DNA of 64,000 nt from Halopelagius inordinatus (GTDB taxonomy: Archaea > Halobacteriota > Halobacteria > Halobacteriales > Haloferacaceae). Both the position numbers and the translations under genes were made by a program. Below, in pieces: positions 1 through 8,610 of this stretch (position 1 is its first letter; the number at the start of each line of letters is the position of its first letter). The DNA is taken from assembly GCF_900113245.1 (NCBI RefSeq), contig NZ_FOOQ01000001.1, positions 124,001 to 188,000 of the forward strand. The letters are read 5' to 3'. A model generated the notes under the pieces. It made no database searches, was not told where the DNA came from, and saw nothing but the letters and a program-made list of their open reading frames with translations.

Positions 1-31
1 CGAACCGCGTCGGGTGCGAGACGAACGTCAC
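1..31 (-). CDS. 5' end of next gene in the DUF58 operon (partial)
   Basis: A GTG at 31-29 overlaps the TGA of the DUF58 gene (30-28) in a GTGA arrangement, the same coupling used by the two gene junctions upstream. The ten visible codons read V-T-F-V-S-H-P-T-R-F and run off the window. In haloarchaea this operon usually continues with a membrane protein and a MoxR-type AAA ATPase, so that is the expected identity, but nothing visible proves it. Confidence 0.4.
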   Translation of the reverse strand, partial: MTFVSHPTRF

Positions 32-1293
32 AGGCCGCGCTCCTTCGCCCGGAGCAGTTCCGGACCGAGCGGTTCGCTCGGCGACCACGGGACGACGGTG
101 ACGCCGCCGCCTCGAAGTCGCCGGACTCTCTCCTCCCGTTCGACCGCCGCGAACCGACTGCCGGGCGTCTCGGCCGTCGTCACGTCCGGACAGACGACGG
201 TGACCGCGGTTCGACTGTTCTCAAGTTCCAGCGCGAACGACGCCACCTCCTCGTCGGTCAACGGCGAGAAGAGGAACACCTGCGTCTGGTCCCCGAGACG
301 GCGGCGTAGTTCGTCGAACTGCCCGCTCGGAGACCAGTCGGCGTCGACTGCGGGCGGCACCGTAGAGAACGTCCGGTGACTCGCGAGTAACTGCCGGGCG
401 TCCGCGAGGTGGTCGGTGCCGCGTCCCGGTCGGTGCCAACAGAGTTCCCGGCCGACGGCGGCCAGACCGACCGCGTCCCGGCCGTTTCCGACCGCGGTCA
501 GAAGTTGCGAGATGGCCTCCCGACTGCACGCGACGGCGTTGGGTTCGTCTTCGCTCGCGGCGCGGTAGGCGCACGCTCTCGCGTCGAGACAGAGAAGCAC
601 GGACGCCGGTCGCTCCTCTCTGAACTCGATGGTGGTGAGTTCGCCCGTCTTCGCCCGGCGCTTCCAGTCGATTCGGGACATCGGGTCGCCCGTGTTGTAC
701 TCGCGGGTCTTGTGGAACTCGATACCGCTTCCGCCGTCGGGCGTCAACACCCGACCGCTTCCGAGCGTCGTCTGCTCTCGAAGCGGAACCTCCGGAACGG
801 CCGCCGCGCACTCGATTGCGGCGTCCGCCGAGACGGACGTCTCGACTTCGGTCGAGCCGGTTATATCGCGTGCGACGACCGTCGCGGGGTCGAACTGGTG
901 GCGGCCGTGCGCGGCCTCCACGTCGTACTCGAACTCGGTCGTCGACCCCGGCCGCAGGAACGCCGCGTGCCGCGGCGTCCCGTTACTCACCGTCAGCATC
1001 GGCGGGACGCCGTCGACGATACGGAGGTCCGAGAGCGTCGAGTCGCCGACGTTGCGAACGCGGACGGTCACCGTCACGTCGTCGCCCGCCGCCGGGTCGG
1101 TCGGCGTCAGAGAGCGCGTCACGTCGAGTTCGACCGACGGCGGGGACCGAAGCCACGGGTACGCCGCGAATCCCGCGCCGACCGCACCGGCGAGCAACAC
1201 CAGCGGTCTCGTCGCGAACACGCCGACTGCGCTCGCGAGCAAGGCGATGGCGACGACGCCCCGCCACCGGTGCGTCCGGCGAACGGCGGTCAT
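28..1293 (-). CDS. DUF58 domain membrane protein
   Basis: 421-residue protein. Two hydrophobic segments lie within the first 50 residues, followed by a CARDB/DUF11-like extracellular-type beta region (about 55-160), then the DUF58 signature R-E-Y-x2-G-D-x4-I-D-W-K near residue 230 and a vWA-like fold to the end. DUF58 proteins typically work with a MoxR AAA ATPase in envelope or complex assembly; the exact role is unknown. The ATG at 1293 was chosen because it overlaps the upstream gene's stop as ATGA and leaves out a long arginine-rich, non-protein-like extension. It is the third gene of a translationally coupled minus-strand operon. Confidence 0.9.
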   Translation of the reverse strand: MTAVRRTHRWRGVVAIALLASAVGVFATRPLVLLAGAVGAGFAAYPWLRSPPSVELDVTRSLTPTDPAAGDDVTVTVRVRNVGDSTLSDLRIVDGVPPMLTVSNGTPRHAAFLRPGSTTEFEYDVEAAHGRHQFDPATVVARDITGSTEVETSVSADAAIECAAAVPEVPLREQTTLGSGRVLTPDGGSGIEFHKTREYNTGDPMSRIDWKRRAKTGELTTIEFREERPASVLLCLDARACAYRAASEDEPNAVACSREAISQLLTAVGNGRDAVGLAAVGRELCWHRPGRGTDHLADARQLLASHRTFSTVPPAVDADWSPSGQFDELRRRLGDQTQVFLFSPLTDEEVASFALELENSRTAVTVVCPDVTTAETPGSRFAAVEREERVRRLRGGGVTVVPWSPSEPLGPELLRAKERGL

Positions 1294-1964
1294 CGCTCGC
1301 CTCCCGCGGTGCCCGCCGCACTCGCCGTACTCACGGCGGACTCGCTGTTCTCTCCACCGGTTCCTGTTCCGGGTTCGACGCCGCCGAGGCGGCAGACTTC
1401 GTCGGCCGCGCGCCGCGCGCCCGTCTGGAACCACGACCGCCGAGAGACGAGAGCGCGGAGGCGCGCCCCTATCCACGGCCGTCTGGCGTTGCTCAGAAAC
1501 GTCGCCGCCGCGTCGTCGTCGGTCCACTCGCCGCTTTCGATCATCTCGCTGGCTCTCTCCTGAGAGACGTTTTCGCGGCGCATCACCTCCCGTTCGGCCG
1601 CCCGGCGAATCCGCGCTCGGAGCCGCTTTTCCTCCTCGGTCGGACGGTGCGGAAGCAGGTGGAGACGCTCCGTGACGGTCCGGTCGAACCGGACGCCGGG
1701 GTAGGCGGCGTGTTGGACCGTCTCCGGGTTCGGCATCGTCGCTTGGTCGACGCCGTCCAGTCCGCGACGAGCGACGACAGCAACGACGAACAGGATGGCG
1801 ACGACGCCCACCGCGGCGGCCAGAACGTAGTCGCTCCCGACCGCTTCGACGAGCGCATCGGACGGGAACGCCTCGGAAACGGCCGGGACGGCGACGACGA
1901 GGAGAGCGAGAGACAGGACGCAAGCGCCCGCGATGCCGAGTGCGATTCGGAGGCGTCGTCTCAT
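1290..1964 (-). CDS. haloarchaeal DUF7269-like membrane protein
   Basis: 224 residues. Two transmembrane helices (about residues 6-27 and 47-66) are followed by a cytoplasmic domain rich in Arg/Glu and a Gly/Ser/Ala-rich tail. It sits between DUF4129 and DUF58 with ATGA overlaps on both sides (stop 1292-1290 shares bases with the DUF58 start; start 1964-1962 shares bases with the DUF4129 stop), so its product is probably stoichiometric with those partners. The DUF number is recalled from operon position and appearance, not checked. The catalytic role, if any, is unknown. Confidence 0.8.
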   Translation of the reverse strand: MRRRLRIALGIAGACVLSLALLVVAVPAVSEAFPSDALVEAVGSDYVLAAAVGVVAILFVVAVVARRGLDGVDQATMPNPETVQHAAYPGVRFDRTVTERLHLLPHRPTEEEKRLRARIRRAAEREVMRRENVSQERASEMIESGEWTDDDAAATFLSNARRPWIGARLRALVSRRSWFQTGARRAADEVCRLGGVEPGTGTGGENSESAVSTASAAGTAGGER

Positions 1965-2815
1965 CGTCTCTCCTCGTTGTTTGCACGCCGATCCGACGAC
2001 GTTCGCTCTGTCGCGTTTCGCTCGCCGCCGTCGGCCCGGACGTCGGTTCGCACGTCGAGACGCGCGAGGTTGCGGTGCACTTCGGCGCGGCGCGCCTCGG
2101 TCACCTCGCGTTCGCCGTACGTGACCTCCTCGAAGACGCGCCGGATGCGCTGGACCGCGTCGGGGTCGAGACCGCTCTCGACGGCCTCGTCCGCGCATTC
2201 GGCGGGCGTCTTCTTCCAGGGGTTCTCGACGCGCGTCGCGCCGAGGATATCGACCCACGCCCGTTCGACGTCGTTCTCGGGCGCGGGGACGCCGACCGGT
2301 TCTTCGGACGCGCGGTTCTCGGGCGGTTCGAGGAACGCGGCGACCCGGTCGCGGTACCGGACGAGAAGCGCCAACACGAGAACCGCTATCAGGAGCGGTA
2401 TCCAACTCTGTCCGGGGTCGGGAACGTTCCCGAACCCGCCGAGAGACTGCTGGCTCTCCTCTTGTCCGGACCCGGACTGTCGGTTCTTCTCGGCGTCTTT
2501 TTGCTGTTGCCCGGAGCTTCCGTCGTCGCCGCTCCGTCGATTCCGCTCTTCGTCACCGCCGTCGTCGTCCCGCGTCGTCAACGACCCGTCCGACGACTTC
2601 TCCGCCGAGGTGTCTCCGGACCCGTCTCCGGCGGCGGTAATCGCCTCCTTCAACGTCCCGGTGTCGGACTGACTGATGGGGATGAGTTCGTGACCGACGT
2701 TTATGACCTCGTCCGGCGTCGACGAGAGCGACGATTCGAGCGTCGTGGAGGCGACGCCCACCGAGGTGACACAGGCGAACGCGACGACGAGTGTCGCGAG
2801 TGCGCGCGCGTTCAT
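1961..2815 (-). CDS. DUF4129 domain secreted/membrane protein
   Basis: 284 residues. An N-terminal signal-like helix (residues 4-22) precedes a long polar region full of Gly, Ser, Asp, Gln and Lys. One transmembrane helix (about 140-157) follows, then a cytoplasmic DUF4129 segment containing A-W-V-D-I-L and the N-P-W-K-K-T-P-A-E motif typical of the family. DUF4129 proteins co-occur with transglutaminase-like, DUF58 and MoxR proteins. This is the first gene of the operon; its start faces the A/T-rich 2816-3067 spacer, where the promoter must lie. Confidence 0.85.
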   Translation of the reverse strand: MNARALATLVVAFACVTSVGVASTTLESSLSSTPDEVINVGHELIPISQSDTGTLKEAITAAGDGSGDTSAEKSSDGSLTTRDDDGGDEERNRRSGDDGSSGQQQKDAEKNRQSGSGQEESQQSLGGFGNVPDPGQSWIPLLIAVLVLALLVRYRDRVAAFLEPPENRASEEPVGVPAPENDVERAWVDILGATRVENPWKKTPAECADEAVESGLDPDAVQRIRRVFEEVTYGEREVTEARRAEVHRNLARLDVRTDVRADGGERNATERTSSDRRANNEERR

Positions 2816-3067
2816 CTGACTCGCAGTCGTCGTGGTCTATCTCCGACTCGATCCGTTGTGACGACGGGACGTTCCGATACCGACATCTCCGTCGCCGCGA
2901 CTGGCGAACAACTCACGTCGGTACGATTCGTCGGCTGTTCGGCGTAAGGCATTTTTTGGAGGTATCTGGTAATATCACAAAATACGACGCGTGGTTAGCG
3001 ACCCCATTACGGGCGGACGGCGTCCGCAGACGCCCGACTTTTTACCTCCGGGTCCGTTCGTCTCCCC
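2816..3067. promoter_or_regulatory. divergent intergenic region
   Basis: A 252-bp spacer between the DUF4129 gene (minus) and the first MgtE-like gene (plus). An A/T-rich stretch at about 2948-2985 stands out from the GC-rich surroundings and probably holds promoter elements. A run of T (3038-3044) lies about 25-30 nt before the ATG at 3068 and could be the plus-strand TATA-like box. No ORF worth reporting was seen. Confidence 0.4.
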
Positions 3068-3649
3068 ATGACACTGGGCGACGCCGCCGCGGAAGCGTAC
3101 AGAGAGGCGCTTCCGGCACTCGTCGCCAGCCTCGTTGGTGGGCTCTTGGCCGGCGTCGTTCTCAGCGGGATGGACTCCGAACTCGAAGCGGTACCCGGAC
3201 TGCTCGTCATCGTCCCGGCGCTTCTCGCGACGCGGGGGAACGTCTACGGCTCTCTCGGCGCGCGCATCGCCACCGCTCTCCACCAAGGCCTCATCGAACC
3301 TCGCGTCTCCGCGGCCGACGAACGACTCCGGGCCGCCGCCGCCGCGGCGTTGGCGAACGGCGTCCTCGCGTCGGTGTTCGCCTCCGTCGTCGCCTTCGCG
3401 CTTCTCAGTTTGCTCGGCCGCGACGTGGCGTCAGTGGGAGTGCTCGCGGCCGTCGCCTTCGTCGCGGGAGTCCTCTCGGGCCTCGCGCTCACCGTCGTCG
3501 TCGTAGTCGTCGTGTTCGCGGGCTACCGGCGGGGACACAACCCGGACACACTCGTGGGCCCTCTCGTCACCACCACCGGCGACGTGTTCGGCGTCCTCTT
3601 TTTGCTCGTCGCGGTCCGGGTCGTCCTGTTCGTCGGAGGTGTCGTCTGA
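3068..3649 (+). CDS. MgtE-type divalent cation channel domain protein, half 1
   Basis: 193 residues, almost entirely membrane: about five hydrophobic segments. It has the MgtE membrane-domain signature P-A-L-x2-T-R-G-N (about residues 51-59) and a second G-D-V-F-G motif near residue 177. It lacks the N-domain and CBS domains of full-length MgtE, so it corresponds to the pore domain only. The next gene starts on the base after its stop and encodes a related pore domain; the two probably form a heterodimeric Mg2+ or other divalent-cation channel, because MgtE pores are dimers. Confidence 0.85.
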   Translation: MTLGDAAAEAYREALPALVASLVGGLLAGVVLSGMDSELEAVPGLLVIVPALLATRGNVYGSLGARIATALHQGLIEPRVSAADERLRAAAAAALANGVLASVFASVVAFALLSLLGRDVASVGVLAAVAFVAGVLSGLALTVVVVVVVFAGYRRGHNPDTLVGPLVTTTGDVFGVLFLLVAVRVVLFVGGVV

Positions 3650-4207
3650 ATGCGGACCGAGTGGACGGTTCGAGCCATCACGCGGGCGATGCTCCCCGTT
3701 CTCCTCGTGTTGACGCTCGTGGAACTGGGGAGCGGACTCGTCCTCGGAAGCTTCGAGGCGCAACTCCTCCGGTTTCCCTCCCTCCTCGCTCTCGTTCCCG
3801 TCACCATCGGCACCGCGGGGAACCTCGGGAGCATCCTCGCCGCGCGCCTCTCGACGGCGCTTCACCTCGGGACGCTCTCGTTCGACCCGACGGACGAGGA
3901 ACTGGCGGGCAACGCCCTCGCCACCATCGCGCTTTCGGTGACCGTCTTTCCGGTCATCGGCGTCGGCGCGTGGGGACTGACGGGGCTTCTCGGCGGCGTC
4001 CGACTCCCGGTTTCGACCGTCGTCGCCGTCGCCCTCCTCTCCGGCATCGCACTGGCGTTTCTCGCCGTCGCCGTCACCCTCGTCACCACGTACGCCGCGT
4101 ACCGGTTCGAACTGGACCCCGACGACGTGGTCATCCCCGTGGTGACGAACACCTGCGACGTCCTCGGCGTGTTGGTGCTTTTCGCCTCCGTGCAGTTGCT
4201 CGTCTGA
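3650..4207 (+). CDS. MgtE-type divalent cation channel domain protein, half 2
   Basis: 185 residues with five predicted membrane helices. The segment L-V-P-V-T-I-G-T-A-G-N (about residues 47-57) matches the MgtE pore motif and aligns with the equivalent region of the preceding protein; the C-terminal N-T-C-D-V-L-G motif matches G-D-V-F-G there. No CBS or N domain. TGA of half 1 and ATG of half 2 are directly adjacent, implying coupled synthesis. The substrate is inferred from the family only. Confidence 0.85.
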   Translation: MRTEWTVRAITRAMLPVLLVLTLVELGSGLVLGSFEAQLLRFPSLLALVPVTIGTAGNLGSILAARLSTALHLGTLSFDPTDEELAGNALATIALSVTVFPVIGVGAWGLTGLLGGVRLPVSTVVAVALLSGIALAFLAVAVTLVTTYAAYRFELDPDDVVIPVVTNTCDVLGVLVLFASVQLLV

Positions 4208-4262
4208 ACTCGCACGCCGACGAACCGACGCCGATTAGGCCCGCCGCACCCGACCACCGAAC

Positions 4263-5246
4263 GTGCAGTCCGTGCAGACGTTCGAGACGTTGTGGCCCGT
4301 TCTTCGGGAGGTCGTCCCGCGAGTCGCCAACATCGCCGTCCTCATCGCCGTCGGCGTGTTCCTCGCGAACGTCGCCGTCGGGTTCGGAGTGGTGGACTAC
4401 GTGGCGGCCGTCTCGCGCTATCTGACGCGCCCCGCGAACCTCCCCGACGAGGTGGGCACGGCCATCTTCACCACCGCCGCCTCGACGACTGCGGGGTACG
4501 GGATGCTCGCGGAGTTCCGCGAGTCGGGGATGCTCGACGACAGGGCGACGCTCGTTGCCGTCACGATGAACACGTTCTTCGGGTTCGTCCAGCACATCTT
4601 CACGTTCTACGTGCCCGTCCTCGTTCCCATCCTCGGTGTGGAAGTCGGGGTGTTGTACGTCGGGACGCGGGCGGCGATTTCGTTGGCCATCACCGCCGTC
4701 GGCGTCCTCGCGGGGGCGGCGCTCCTTTCGGAGCGAAACGTCGATAGAACCGTCACGACTCAGGCGGACGGTGGCGTGGGCGACGAGGGCAGTGACTCGC
4801 GCCGAACCGTCGTCGCCGAGGCGGCGCGGAAGACGTGGCCGAAACTGAAGCGTATCGTCCCCCGATTGGTCGTCGTCTATCTCGTCGTGACGCTCGTCGT
4901 GCGGACGACGGACCTCGAATCGTTCACCGCGGCGGCCGACCCTCTCGCGACGTTCGTCGGCCTCCCCGGCGCGTCCATCCCCGTCATCGCCGTCTTCGCG
5001 TTCGATACGACGGCGGGCGCGGCGACTATCGCCCCCATGGTCGGAGAGGCGTTCACGCCGCGGACGGCGGTGGCGACGATGCTTCTGGGCGGTATCGTCT
5101 CGTTCGCCGTCTCGACGTTCAAACGCTCTATCCCCTTCCAGTACGGCATCTGGGGACCCCGGTTCGGGTCGAAAGTCGTCGCCGTCAACACCGCCTTGAA
5201 AGTCGCGTTCATCGGCGTCGCGTTGGTGTTCTTGCTGGCCGTTTGA
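4263..5246 (+). CDS. nucleoside-recognition (Gate) domain membrane protein
   Basis: 327 residues starting at GTG. About eight to ten membrane helices are arranged as two Gate-like halves separated by a hydrophilic linker (about 165-185). Motifs include T-T-A-A-S-T-T-A-G-Y-G-M (about 75-86) and a matching F-D-T-T-A-G-A-A-T-I in the second half, typical of nucleoside recognition/Gate proteins of the SpmA/SpmB-FeoB type. It follows the two MgtE halves by 55 bp and may be co-transcribed with them. The transported substrate cannot be read from the sequence. Confidence 0.8.
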   Translation: MQSVQTFETLWPVLREVVPRVANIAVLIAVGVFLANVAVGFGVVDYVAAVSRYLTRPANLPDEVGTAIFTTAASTTAGYGMLAEFRESGMLDDRATLVAVTMNTFFGFVQHIFTFYVPVLVPILGVEVGVLYVGTRAAISLAITAVGVLAGAALLSERNVDRTVTTQADGGVGDEGSDSRRTVVAEAARKTWPKLKRIVPRLVVVYLVVTLVVRTTDLESFTAAADPLATFVGLPGASIPVIAVFAFDTTAGAATIAPMVGEAFTPRTAVATMLLGGIVSFAVSTFKRSIPFQYGIWGPRFGSKVVAVNTALKVAFIGVALVFLLAV

Positions 5247-5306
5247 CTCTCTGCCTCCGGGCTCTCGTCCCCGCATCTCGGAGAGTATGATATATGTTCT
5301 GGCACA

Positions 5307-5318
5307 AGTATATTATAG
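5307..5318 (+). promoter_or_regulatory. TATA-like box for HalOD1 gene
   Basis: The A/T-rich element AAGTATATTATAG is centred about 27 nt before the ATG at 5339. This is archaeal TATA spacing for a leaderless transcript and supports 5339 rather than the upstream in-frame ATG at 5294. Confidence 0.55.
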
Positions 5319-5338
5319 CAACAGTCTCACAAACTGAC

Positions 5339-5662
5339 ATGGTCACGAGCGACGAGACTCCTCCCGAAGACGCCAACTGCGTGGCAGTCCACGCTCTGGG
5401 CGAGGAATCGGAGTCTGTGATAGGGGAGACGCTCCGAATTTTGGCCGACATGGAGGACGTTCCGGTCGATGACCTCGAACCGCTGTACCACCGAGTCGAG
5501 ACGGACGCGGTAGTCAGCCTCCTCGCTCACGCCAGAGAGTCGAACTCCGCGGTCAGCGTCGAGTTCACCGTCGACGAGTACACCGTCGCCGTCTCCCACG
5601 ATTACCGCGAGTCGCCGCGCGACGAGAGCCAAGTCGTCGTCGAAGTCGTCGACGGAACCTGA
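5339..5662 (+). CDS. HalOD1 output-domain protein
   Basis: 107 residues, soluble and acidic. It matches the HalOD1 pattern: an N-terminal beta segment (C-V-A-V-H-A-L), a helix with the D-V-P-V-D-D-L-E-P-L-Y motif (about residues 39-50), then V-S-V-E-F and Y-T-V-A-V-S strands. HalOD1 is a haloarchaea-specific presumed signalling output domain of unknown activity, often encoded as a free-standing protein like this one. The start is set by the TATA-like box just upstream; the ATG at 5294 would lie inside the promoter. Confidence 0.85.
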   Translation: MVTSDETPPEDANCVAVHALGEESESVIGETLRILADMEDVPVDDLEPLYHRVETDAVVSLLAHARESNSAVSVEFTVDEYTVAVSHDYRESPRDESQVVVEVVDGT

Positions 5663-5800
5663 TATCGAACTCCGCCGCGGGAGGTGGTTCTCGCGAGCGA
5701 CGTCTCGTCTTCGCGTCTCCCCGACCCGACTCCGGTTCGGTCACACCGCCCCGTTCTGCGCGTTACCAACTACCATGGTACTGTGGTCCGTACACCCCCT

Positions 5801-6322
5801 ATGGACAGCAGAACGTACGAGTTCGAGGGGAAGAAACCCGAGATTCACGAGGACGCGCGGGTGAGTCGGGACGCGACGCTGGTCGGAGACGTGACCGTCG
5901 GTGCGGATGCCAGCGTCTGGCCGGGCGTCGTCCTCCGCGGCGACGTGTCGTCGGTGCGAGTGCGACGTGAGTCCCACGTCGGCGACAACGCCGTGTTGCA
6001 CGCCGCCACTCTCGGAGAACGGGTCATGGTCGGCCACGGTGCCGTGTTGAACGAGACGCACGTCGAAGACGGGGCGTTGGTCGGGTTCAACGCGACGGTC
6101 AACACCGACGTCGTGGTGGGCGCAGACAGCATCGTCGCGTCCGGAACCGTCGTCCCCGACGGGTACGAGATACCGCCCGAGTCGTTCGTCCGCGGCGTCC
6201 CCGCGCGCGTCACGCCGCTTTCGGAGACGGACGTGGACCCCGCGGAGACGTTCGAGGCGTACCACTCGGGGGCGTACACGGACTTGGCCTCTCGTCACGC
6301 GGACCTGTTCGACGGAGAGTAA
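5801..6322 (+). CDS. gamma-carbonic anhydrase family (left-handed beta-helix) protein
   Basis: 173 residues with hexapeptide-repeat spacing typical of the left-handed beta-helix: P-E-I-H-E-D-A, S-V-W-P-G-V-V-L-R-G-D, N-A-V-L-H-A-A, V-M-V-G-H-G-A, A-L-V-G-F-N-A. Histidines in H-A-A and V-G-H-G are candidate zinc ligands, but the expected third ligand of the H-x4-H pair appears replaced by N-A-T (G-F-N-A-T), so true carbonic anhydrase activity is uncertain; YrdA/PaaY-like acyl or ferripyochelin-binding homologues are alternatives. The ATG at 5801 gives the normal family length; an upstream in-frame ATG at 5684 would add an unrelated tail. Confidence 0.85.
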   Translation: MDSRTYEFEGKKPEIHEDARVSRDATLVGDVTVGADASVWPGVVLRGDVSSVRVRRESHVGDNAVLHAATLGERVMVGHGAVLNETHVEDGALVGFNATVNTDVVVGADSIVASGTVVPDGYEIPPESFVRGVPARVTPLSETDVDPAETFEAYHSGAYTDLASRHADLFDGE

Positions 6323-6342
6323 CGGGGCGGACGGTCCGGGGG

Positions 6343-6756
6343 CTAGCGGTCGAAATCCAGCGGTTTCCCGTCCTCGGTGGGCGGGGCGATGTGGTCGACG
6401 AACTCCTCTACGGACGGTTCGCGGACGGCGACGTGGACTTCGATGTCCCCGAGTTCGTCCGGGTTGCCGACGGCGAAGTTTATCACTCCCTTGAACGCCG
6501 CCTGTTTCTTCAGCGCGAACGAAAAGCCCTCGTCGTCGGCGCGTTTCTCGAACTCCCGGCGCGCGGTGTCGAGTATCTCCTGTTCGTGAAGTCGCTCCGA
6601 AAACCGGTCGAGCGAGTGCGTCTCACCGACCAACTGTCCGGCCTCGTATTCGAACTCGACGTTCGGAAAGAGGGTCCGGACGGCGTCTTCGACTCTGTCC
6701 GTCACTTCCGTCTCTCGGACGGGCGCGACGATTCGCGCCTCGATGCTGTGTATCAT
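6343..6756 (-). CDS. UPF0201-type RNA-binding domain protein
   Basis: 137 residues, soluble. The pattern M-x-H-S-I-E-A-R-I-V-A-P-V at the N-terminus, F-P-N-V-E-F-E-Y about residue 30 and the mixed alpha/beta layout fit the archaeal UPF0201 (L5-like RNA-binding) family. Its ATG (6756-6754) overlaps the TGA of the UPF0200 kinase gene, so the two are translationally coupled. Function is unknown; a link to RNA or CoA metabolism is conjecture from neighbours. Confidence 0.85.
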   Translation of the reverse strand: MIHSIEARIVAPVRETEVTDRVEDAVRTLFPNVEFEYEAGQLVGETHSLDRFSERLHEQEILDTARREFEKRADDEGFSFALKKQAAFKGVINFAVGNPDELGDIEVHVAVREPSVEEFVDHIAPPTEDGKPLDFDR

Positions 6757-7331
6757 TCTCTCACCTCGCGTGTCGTCTGCAGTCCGTCGGGCCCCTCGCG
6801 CAGGAGCACAGACACCTGCTCGCGGAACCGTTCGAGCGTGTCGGTGTTCTCGATTCGGACGTCCGCGCGGTCCATCGCTTCGCCCATCCCGAACCCGAGC
6901 TCCCGCTTTTCGCGGTCTTTCAGCGCCTCTCTGTCGCTGTCGCTGTCGTCGCGCGCTCGGTCGAGAAGCCGTTCGGCGCGAACCTCGAAGGGCGCTTCGA
7001 TGCTCGCGAGGACGAACTCGTCGCCGAACGCCATCTCGAAGCACTCGAGTTCGACGCCCGAGCGCAGACCGTCCACGAGGACGACGTCGGCGACTTCGAG
7101 TTTCTCCTCTACGAGCGGTATCGAGCGCTCGGCGATGGCCTCCGGGCCGTCCTCCTCGCGGAGCGCGGTGGCTATCTCGCCGTGGTGTTCCGCGGGGTCG
7201 AGTCCCCGCTTGCGACACTCCTCGCGGATGACGTCGCCCATCGTCACGACGGGGACGCCCTCCTCGCGGGCGACGGCGGCGGCCTCGCCTTTGCCGCTTC
7301 CCGGGAGGCCCACGGTTCCGATGACCTTCAT
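6753..7331 (-). CDS. UPF0200 family P-loop nucleotide kinase (dephospho-CoA-kinase-like)
   Basis: 192 residues. Starts M-K-V-I-G-T-V-G-L-P-G-S-G-K-G-E with a Walker A motif G-L-P-G-S-G-K-G at about residues 8-15, then G-D-V-I-R-E-E-C (about 38-45) and V-L-V-D-G-L-R-S (about 90-97), which match the UPF0200 archaeal adenylate/dephospho-CoA-kinase-like family. ATG 7331 places the P-loop at the normal position. It is first in a two-gene operon with UPF0201. The substrate is not assignable from sequence. Confidence 0.85.
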   Translation of the reverse strand: MKVIGTVGLPGSGKGEAAAVAREEGVPVVTMGDVIREECRKRGLDPAEHHGEIATALREEDGPEAIAERSIPLVEEKLEVADVVLVDGLRSGVELECFEMAFGDEFVLASIEAPFEVRAERLLDRARDDSDSDREALKDREKRELGFGMGEAMDRADVRIENTDTLERFREQVSVLLREGPDGLQTTREVRE

Positions 7332-7377
7332 CGTCGCCCGTTTCTCGTCTGTCGGACTTAGGGTTGCCGCTACACCT

Positions 7378-7432
7378 CCAGCTTTTTTCGCCCTCGGGTT
7401 CGCTTCGCTCACCGCTCGGGCAAAAAAGCTGG
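7378..7432. repeat. long A/T-and-G/C hairpin with TCGCTTCGCTC loop
   Basis: The left arm CCAGCTTTTTTCGCCC (7378-7393) and right arm GGGCAAAAAAGCTGG (7418-7432) are reverse complements except for one extra C. The loop holds TTCGCTTCGCTC (7399-7410). It lies upstream of the UPF0200 gene and the YccF gene, which diverge. The oligo-T and oligo-A arms could also end transcription in either direction. The same loop core recurs at 8090, 8270 and 33401. Confidence 0.7.
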
Positions 7433-7541
7433 ACCAAAAAAGGCCGCTCGCTTCCTCCGGTCGCTCGCGGCTCTATTCTTCAGACTGCTCTCCGAAGCTC
7501 TATTCGACGGCGCTTTCCCCCTCGGGCGACTTTCTTCGAGT

Positions 7542-7919
7542 ATGAAAGACCGTTCCCTCCTCGTGCGCGCCCTCTGGTTCGTCCTCGTCGGGTGGTGGGC
7601 GACGCCCGTCGTCGTCAACCTCGCGTGGGCGCTGACTGTGACCGTCGTTCTCGCCCCGGTCGGAATCAAACTCGTCAACCTCGTCCCCGCGGTGTTGACC
7701 CTGAAAGAACCGCGCTCTCGGACCGTCCCCGACGCCGCCCGCGGCCAGCGTTCGCTCCTCGTGCGCGCCCTCTACTTCGTCCTCGTCGGGTGGTGGCTCG
7801 GATTCGTCTGGGCGAACGTGGCGTCGTTCCTCGCCGTCACCGTCGTCGGGCTTCCCGTCGCAATCTGGATGCTCAACCGACTCCCCGCGGTCACCTCGCT
7901 GTACCGATTCGACGGGTAG
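7542..7919 (+). CDS. YccF-type small membrane protein with internal duplication
   Basis: 125 residues with four hydrophobic segments. Two near-identical halves each begin R-S-L-L-V-R-A-L-x-F-V-L-V-G-W-W (residues 4-19 and 70-85) and end in L-P-V/A-P-V-G-I-x-x-L-N-R/L-x-P-A-V. YccF domains are found in bacteria and haloarchaea; no activity is known. The first half-repeats are also nearly identical in DNA (7555-7598 and 7753-7796), suggesting a recent or converted duplication. Confidence 0.8.
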   Translation: MKDRSLLVRALWFVLVGWWATPVVVNLAWALTVTVVLAPVGIKLVNLVPAVLTLKEPRSRTVPDAARGQRSLLVRALYFVLVGWWLGFVWANVASFLAVTVVGLPVAIWMLNRLPAVTSLYRFDG

Positions 7920-7969
7920 CGGACCGAACCCGCATCGCTTTTCATCTATCGGGGTTTGAGTGTAACCGA

Positions 7970-8044
7970 GGGCACGTAGCTCAGTCCGGAAAGAGCGTCG
8001 GACTTCTAATCCGACGGTCGTGGGTTCAAATCCCATCGTGCCCG
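7970..8044 (+). tRNA. tRNA-Arg (anticodon TCT)
   Basis: Cloverleaf: acceptor GGGCACG pairs with CGTGCCC; D-arm GCTC...GAGC; anticodon stem TCGGA/TCCGA closing the loop CTTCTAA with anticodon TCT (reads AGA); T-arm GTGGG-TTCAAAT-CCCAT; discriminator G at 8044. No intron and no encoded CCA. Its 3' end is repeated three more times downstream, see the repeat entries. Confidence 0.95.
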
Positions 8045-8123
8045 TTCGGCCTCGTTTCACTCGGCCTCACGGCCACGACGTAGTCACGTTCGCTTCGCTC
8101 ACGTGACTCCCATCGTGCCCGTT
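8023..8123 (+). repeat. tRNA-tail repeat, copy 1
   Basis: 101-bp direct repeat that begins inside the T-arm of tRNA-Arg and ends with another copy of the tRNA 3' end. The 16-nt tail TCCCATCGTGCCCGTT occurs at both ends of the unit (8031-8046 and 8108-8123). In between lies an imperfect palindrome AGTCACG...CGTGACT (8082-8108) whose loop carries TCGCTTCGCTC. The second copy is exactly 180 bp downstream. Confidence 0.9.
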
Positions 8124-8202
8124 ACTTCTCGGCGAACGAAGTGAGCCGCGAGTAACGGGTCCACGTGGGATTTGAATCAGGGAGCAGCTCCGCTGCGACC
8201 GA
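8124..8202 (+). other. spacer between tRNA-tail repeats
   Basis: 79 bp with two self-complementary segments: 8119-8159, where CCGTTACT and AGTAACGG flank GAACGAAGTGAG; and GCAGCTCCGCTGC (8184-8196). At 8163-8177 the sequence CGTGGGATTTGAATC is the reverse complement of a tRNA T-arm-like string (GATTCAAATCCCACG), an inverted partial copy of a tRNA 3' half. No coding potential seen. It may be what remains of an excised element. Confidence 0.5.
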
Positions 8203-8303
8203 GGTTCAAATCCCATCGTGCCCGTTCGGCCTCGTTTCACTCGGCCTCACGGCCACGATGTAGTCACGTTCGCTTCGCTCACGTGACTCCCCTCGTGCCC
8301 GTT
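8203..8303 (+). repeat. tRNA-tail repeat, copy 2
   Basis: Matches 8023-8123 at 99 of 101 positions (differences at 8259 and 8292). It contains the tRNA tail exactly at 8211-8226 and with one mismatch at 8288-8303. There is no tRNA 5' half in front of it, so it is not a second tRNA gene. Confidence 0.9.
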
Positions 8304-8321
8304 CGTACCGTCCCAAAGCCG

Positions 8322-8429
8322 TCACTTCACCGCTAACGACCGCCCGCACTCGGGGCACTCCTCCTCTACGATGGTCACCTGCGCGTCGCAGTCGGGACAG
8401 ATCTCTCGGTAACACGCGGGGTCGCCCAT
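8322..8429 (-). CDS. 35-residue double-CxxC zinc-ribbon protein
   Basis: Very short ORF with C-P-D-C (residues 11-14) and C-P-E-C (25-28) knuckles, M-G-D-P start and L-A-V-K end, the usual look of haloarchaeal mini zinc-finger proteins. It lies 18 bp from the end of the tRNA-tail repeats and faces away from the thermosome 3' end. Function unknown; small zinc proteins of this class are often regulatory or RNA-associated. Longer in-frame starts upstream give low-complexity, thermosome-shadow sequence and were refused. Confidence 0.6.
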   Translation of the reverse strand: MGDPACYREICPDCDAQVTIVEEECPECGRSLAVK

Positions 8430-8610
8430 GCTACGAGATACCGCGACACGAGGAAAGAGCGTTTCGCCCGGCTCGGAGGTTCGAACGAGGCCGTCGCTCT
8501 CGGAGTCAGCGGTCGAAAGAAAGCCGGATTCGGCGTGCGGGCCGACGTTCGAGAGGCGATTCGAGGCGAGAGGTCGGGGGTGGGTGGGGTTGTGTGAGCC
8601 TAGACGGAGT

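Follow-up and report, generated by a model that had tools for sequence, protein, structure and literature searches.

The closest known kind of sequence to those described here is the 178-bp repeats of the Escherichia coli tyrT/tyrV operon (rtT / RttR RNA). They lie directly after the tRNA gene, as the repeats below do, and each of them ends in a copy of the tRNA 3' end; downstream of tyrV we found the tail copies at +178, +356, and +534. In archaea, tRNA 3' ends are known attachment sites (PMC8371274, PMC3119063, PMC7921747). PMC7921747 also reports 11 partial tRNAs in Haloferax gibbonsii LR2-5, several of which are directly adjacent to a full copy. In the passage concerned they appear as annotation only, and no hairpin, family, or mechanism is given for them. 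We found no description of a family of such repeats in the open-access literature, where PMC7921747 is the only source to mention adjacent partial tRNAs; an earlier description elsewhere is possible.

We analyzed a window of 64,000 nucleotides from a haloarchaeal genome (G000:C1:124001-188000), in which an earlier note had pointed out an array of tail copies downstream of a tRNA-Arg(TCT) gene. The array is a member of a haloarchaea-wide family and not a local oddity, and both its modularity and its spread go beyond what that note contained.

The array downstream of tRNA-Arg(TCT)

The source of the copied tail is the tRNA-Arg(TCT) gene on the forward strand at 7970–8044, which was identified by ARAGORN and by Rfam (RF00005, 73.1 bits). 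Both programs show the gene to be complete, unlike a split, permuted, or intron-bearing tRNA gene, which would be incomplete without its second piece. Positions 53 to 73 of the tRNA correspond to 8024–8044. Read from the sequence, the array that follows consists of three modules in the order P-Q-P'.

Module P (8045–8121, forward strand) is defined by the sequence, by repeat comparison, and by tail matches. It carries an imperfect palindromic piece, in which CATCGTGCCCGTTCGGCC (8034–8051) faces GGCCTCACGGCCACGACG (8063–8080), followed by an inner hairpin (AGTCACG...CGTGACT) and then by the tail copy CCCATCGTGCCCG at 8109–8121. Repeat comparison shows module P' (8225–8301, forward strand) to be a second copy that is 98% identical to P, and its tail, CCCCTCGTGCCCG at 8289–8301, has one change. 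Both modules have two hairpins each, and in both the tail copy starts at tRNA position 61 and is preceded by GACT. P-type units were also found in three other genomes (G010, G035, and G001).

Module Q (8122–8224, forward strand) is composed of a spacer hairpin, an inverted T-arm, a core, and a T-loop with a tail copy of positions 53–73. The first hairpin (8118–8159, forward strand), formed by CCCGTTACTTCTCGGC-GAACGAAGTGA-GCCGCGAGTAACGGG, pairs the tail/trailer junction according to the sequence and the predicted fold, and hairpins that resemble it are present at loci L004, L006, and L013. The inverted T-loop/T-stem arm, GGGATTTGAAT, lies at 8167–8177 on the reverse strand and is recognized by its T-loop match, with one mismatch, and by the specificity of such arms across many modules; the earlier note had already seen a reversed T-arm-like piece here. 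In the hairpin to which this arm belongs, it forms the 5' side and the third T-loop copy (8204–8214) the 3' side. Between them is the core CAGGGAGCAGCTCCGCTGCGACCGAG (8178–8203, forward strand), which pattern scans and core comparison place in the commonest core class. The third tail copy (8204–8224, forward strand) is identical to 8024–8044 of the tRNA gene.

The four tail copies that had been reported for this region are confirmed. The 15-nucleotide sequence CCCATCGTGCCCGTT occurs exactly at 8032–8046, 8109–8123, and 8212–8226, and with one change at 8289–8303. No further matches with two or fewer mismatches were found in the 64 kb, where 0.25 would be expected, and no shuffle gave four. Likewise, the two 101-bp units described previously (8023–8123 and 8203–8303) are 98% identical at a spacing of 180 bp, each unit corresponding to a tail plus module P. 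Folding of the array as a single strand is much more stable than that of shuffled sequences (z = -7.1), and an Rfam search returned only the tRNA above threshold and no family for the modules.

The neighbors of the array are genes for a YccF-like membrane protein and a thermosome subunit and a small zinc-ribbon open reading frame; as the note had stated, no integrase is found at the array. Two further features were seen in this part of the window. A palindrome, CCAGCTTTTTTCGCC...GGCAAAAAAGCTGG, is located between genes at 7380–7435, and similar sequences lie downstream of the tRNA at L004 and L013. The loops GAACGAAGTGAGC / GAGCGAAGCGAGC, with a GAA triloop and tandem G.A pairs, occur within 8063–8160 and at most of the loci read, and loops of this type were encountered in almost all of the haloarchaeal intergenic hairpins that we saw, in modules and non-modules alike.

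Design and distribution of the modules

The modules of this family are short (about 77–111 bp each, of variable length) and palindromic, have no evident gene, and are found just downstream of a tRNA gene on the same strand. Each of them ends in a copy of the neighboring tRNA's own 3' part. The Q-type is the most frequent and consists of an inverted T-arm, a core, a T-loop, the 3' strand of the T-stem, the 3' strand of the acceptor stem, and the discriminator, such that its tail copy comprises the 21 bases from position 53 to position 73 of that very tRNA. The copied block is sharp-edged. Across 83 copies, identity is 0.31 at -2, 0.83 at -1, and 0.95 at G53, remains between 0.93 and 1.00 through N73 (0.93 at N73 itself), and is 0.67 past N73, from where it falls to approximately 0.46.

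The inverted arm is also tRNA-specific. Of 86 oriented hairpins, 80 have the Y/R partners of the T-loop paired, and the two positions that adjoin these on the outer side also exceed permutation; scored without the pattern constraint, a tRNA's own inverted arm reaches 10.44, compared with 9.66 ± 0.12 for permuted arms. The similarity of this arm ends at approximately the T-stem. A fold-back model, in which tail and trailer would be copied whole in inverted orientation, was rejected as a general rule, since inverted tail similarity does not exceed that of swapped tails. In the commonest core, pairing as read from the sequence gives a 3x3 internal loop followed by GG/CC, tandem G.A, and GC pairs.

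Prevalence was estimated from unbiased sets of tRNA genes in this genome, two haloarchaea of different families, and one methanogen, where an own-tail copy was counted if it matched at least 18 of 24 positions within 600 bp downstream, with other tRNAs masked. Such copies follow 17 of 46 tRNAs in this genome and 20 of 46 and 21 of 43 in the other haloarchaea (about 37–49%). None lies upstream of any of the 135 tRNAs of the three haloarchaea, none lies downstream of the 28 tRNAs of the methanogen, and only 1–3% score in a swapped-tail control. An initial count in G000, made before other tRNAs were masked, gave 19 of 46 downstream and none upstream. In this genome the same design, with the respective own tails, is present after tRNAs for Asp, Trp, Met, Val, Leu, Ser, His, Lys, Phe, and Pro and after other Arg tRNAs.

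The family is restricted to one order. A T-arm hairpin pattern (GGATTYGAAN{15,45}GTTCRAATCC; both strands were counted, so that perfect palindromes count twice) is found in 56 of 60 Halobacteriales genomes, with a median of 4 and up to 30 hits, and in one of 236 other genomes of the phylum (G207), while a reversed control pattern is found in none of the Halobacteriales or other phylum genomes scanned. The G207 match was rejected as a haloarchaeal hairpin, being part of a separate 177-bp tail repeat after tRNA-Ala. A stricter class pattern applied to 84,980 species gave at least 120 stretches, and all 80 loci among the matches listed are from Halobacteria. A direct-orientation pattern with the same spacing is absent from 10 haloarchaea and has a single occurrence in each of three non-haloarchaeal genomes of the phylum. 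These three direct pairs of T-loops, 15–45 bp apart (G090:C1:1638209, G071:C20:10787, and G079:C1:319669), are possibly minimal tail duplications or tRNA-like sequences, without hairpins.

The 80 listed loci were picked by the pattern and thus show association and not prevalence. Among these matches, 78 of 81 hairpins have a tRNA upstream on the same strand, in 77 cases within 300 bp and at a median distance of 46 bp, and two of the three hairpins that have none sit at the edge of the locus. Also among the matches listed, 73 of the 78 tRNA-linked hairpins match the tail of their tRNA (at least 17 of 22 positions), and 28 isoacceptors are represented. These associations bear on whether the modules are hairpin elements transposed by a Y1/HuH enzyme (IS200/IS605, REP-like) that targets tRNA ends, in the manner of REP elements or PATEs. 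The palindromic single-strand hairpins, conserved feet, occurrence in arrays, and sharing among loci within a genome would all suit such an enzyme. Palindromes of the REP/BIME or IS605 type would be scattered between genes with a linked Y1 transposase; 78 of the 81 listed hairpins are tied to tRNAs. The hairpins also carry host-specific tails, which are not supplied by that mechanism. We consider this explanation very improbable.

Turnover and origin of the modules

At orthologous loci the tail of tRNA-Arg(TCT) varies between species (CATCGTGCCCG, CATCGTGCTCG, CACCGTGCCCG, CATCGCGCCCG, and CGTCGTGCCCG), and the copies follow the local version; across 30 loci this correspondence is qualitative, the tail having been set wrongly or not found in several. 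Identity between P and P' is 98% within G000 and 89% within G010, compared with 72–75% between the two genomes. The order of modules also differs within one genus, being P-Q-P in G000 and Q-P in G001. The array after tRNA-Leu(TAA) is retained in 30 species of one genus, with one to four modules; the species differ in spacer hairpin and core class, and degraded tail copies also occur. Near-identical cores (similarity greater than 0.75) make up 2.2% of pairs between different tRNAs within one genome. Between genomes they account for 0 of 61 pairs at the same isoacceptor and 0.2% of pairs at other tRNAs. Cores are therefore passed around within a genome to a greater extent than they descend at a given locus. 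At tRNA-Lys(TTT) in G261 (in the set L285–L314 and L375–L390), four consecutive module copies with identical cores are spaced by 111 bp, and this run is a recent tandem expansion.

Integrated elements are also present at tRNA genes of this genome. Duplications of the tail at the kilobase scale are found at tRNA-Ala(CGC) (10.8 kb), tRNA-Thr(GGT) (4.6 kb), and tRNA-Glu(TTC) (10 kb), and in their distal copies homology runs left through the T-stem, whereas module copies start at position 53. Hairpin-type copies lie 31 kb downstream of tRNA-Gly(TCC) and 3.6 kb downstream of tRNA-Gln(TTG), which implies that insertions entered between the tRNA and the array. At the 3' ends of tRNAs Ala(cgc), Thr(cgt), Thr(ggt), Glu(ttc), Gly(tcc), and Gln(ttg) (loci L117–L128) we observed probable integrated elements, with sizes of 4.9, 4.6, 10, 10.8, and up to 31 kb.

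The earlier note had left two readings of the array side by side, namely scars of several rounds of integration and excision or a repeat that spreads with tRNA tails. The second is borne out: the modules are order-wide, adjacent to tRNAs, tail-specific, and rearranged between species, and they have cores common to different tRNAs. The first is not supported. The attachment boundaries differ, and at tRNA-Gly and tRNA-Gln the elements sit between the tRNA and the modules, so the modules are not scars of those elements. An integrase origin long ago is conceivable.

A related explanation is that the modules are remnants or miniature forms of integrative elements, in which a tyrosine recombinase would cross over at the T-loop (53/54), attP would restore the tRNA to position 73, and the old tail would become attR. 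Both edges of the copies are where attL/attR identity would put them, and archaeal attachment at tRNA 3' ends is known from the papers cited above. In addition, tRNA-Met of G000 is a possible exception, where a PF00589 integrase adjoins the module and a further tail copy, the third, begins at G53 at a distance of 8.27 kb. However, the attR homology at tRNA-Ala, tRNA-Thr(GGT), and tRNA-Glu extends through the T-stem, unlike that of modules, and cores common to many tRNA types would need tail switching. The 80 listed loci gave no match to two local integrases, a search with two queries that could miss rare or divergent integrases. Relatives of the modules were not found in plasmid or phage records, and the one match in 2.9 million viral contigs lies beside its own tRNA-Glu and is host flank. 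An origin from such elements is therefore unlikely. The tRNA-Met region itself (L131, G000:C1:440800-460799, approximately positions 1–8600) contains the tRNA, a hairpin module, the PF00589/SAM-like integrase, and a 1096-aa membrane protein whose sequence looks like that of a NorZ-type nitric oxide reductase; it is a possible integrated element with module-type boundaries.

The modules could also be cis-acting RNA, namely hairpins of the pre-tRNA trailer that modulate 3' processing, termination, or stability, in which case selection would have favored the tail copy as a mimic of positions 53–73. Their orientation and proximity to the tRNA (a median of 46 bp among the matches listed), arms that covary with the tRNA T-arm, the folding of the array, the recurrence of core classes, and copy edges at structural borders of the tRNA (the start of the T-loop and the discriminator) are all compatible with such a role. 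Yet half or more of the tRNAs have no modules and those with modules form no fixed set, species differ in the number, order, and core of the modules at a single tRNA, tail copies are degraded in some cases, insertions displace the array by 3.6 kb at tRNA-Gln and 31 kb at tRNA-Gly, and no Rfam family was matched. Judged from sequence features of this kind, a role as RNA seems somewhat unlikely.

We tentatively favor, at somewhat less than even chances, the reading in which DNA recombination generates the modules as repeats and maintains them, without a gene product of their own. They would spread by recombination or template switching at shared T-arm sequence. The T-arm sequence GGTTCRAATCC is common to all tRNAs and to all Q-type modules, and inverted copies of it flank each core. 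This shared sequence would permit template switching during replication or repair, or short-tract gene conversion. A core could thereby move from one tRNA locus to another, and a copy of the host tRNA's own tail would be made behind it. Modules would then be gained, lost, and reshuffled through tandem duplication and through unequal exchange from tail to tail, and conversion would keep the tails equal to the tRNA and the palindrome arms equal to each other. Hairpins made in this way might in addition serve the cell in trailer processing, in termination, or in protecting the 3' end. Behind this reading stand tRNA-specific tails with sharp edges, tRNA-specific arms, local homogenization, and the sharing of cores within genomes.

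Several points count against recombination as the source of the modules. No recombination event was observed between strains that are very closely related. Site-specific integration or selection on an RNA would likewise produce the exact boundaries at 53 and 73. Core classes that recur, for example TCAGGGA...CGACCGTGG, and their tandem G.A pairs seem to be under more constraint than a side effect of mutation alone would be. A simple fold-back model predicts that the acceptor tail and the trailer are copied in inverted form, and this is not generally the case. A more specific possibility, drawn by analogy with integrons, is that the modules are the recombination sites of a tRNA-targeted system, in which the inverted T-arm hairpins would resemble attC and the tRNA T-loop attI. 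A host recombinase might then add, remove, and exchange short hairpin cassettes at the 3' ends of tRNAs across haloarchaea, with the tRNA always restored; we give this idea only a small chance.

Comparison with known repeats

Several classes of known sequence share some features with the modules. REP/BIME and PATE sequences are likewise short palindromic intergenic repeats that occur in arrays, but their occurrence is not confined to tRNAs, and they have no host-specific tRNA tail at their end. The attL/attR duplications of archaeal integrative elements differ in being at the kilobase scale and usually accompanied by an integrase, and in G000 the attR copies extend into the T-stem. The modules explain the partial tRNAs annotated in haloarchaea, and they provide a warning against reading such sequences as integration scars.

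Outside Halobacteria, the locus in G207 (L406, 1296–1882) carries a 177-bp tandem repeat in 3.3 copies after tRNA-Ala(TGC), with a unit that ends in the tRNA tail, and is rtT-like. It differs from the modules in that the copied tail extends left beyond position 53, and we noticed no module family elsewhere in G207. The E. coli repeats were seen in one operon, their copies start at a later point of the T-loop and also contain CCA, and the unit overlaps the annotated tpr open reading frame. Their tandem unit is approximately 178 bp; here the 101-bp copies are 180 bp apart, but single modules measure about 77–111 bp and vary. The spacing of 177–180 bp in all three arrays (here, in E. coli, and in G207) may be a coincidence.

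The haloarchaeal modules differ from the E. coli repeats in having an inverted T-arm hairpin, in having cores common to different tRNAs, and in their abundance. They offer dozens of natural replicates per genome for studies of how palindromes and tandem copies form beside tRNA genes, of whether a recombinase is involved, and of whether such trailers influence tRNA maturation. The nearest cases that we found are a single operon of E. coli and the tRNA-Ala locus of G207. Across an entire order, between a third and a half of the tRNA genes, a prevalence taken from three genomes, carry palindromic copies of their own 3' part that turn over rapidly and still match the tRNA.
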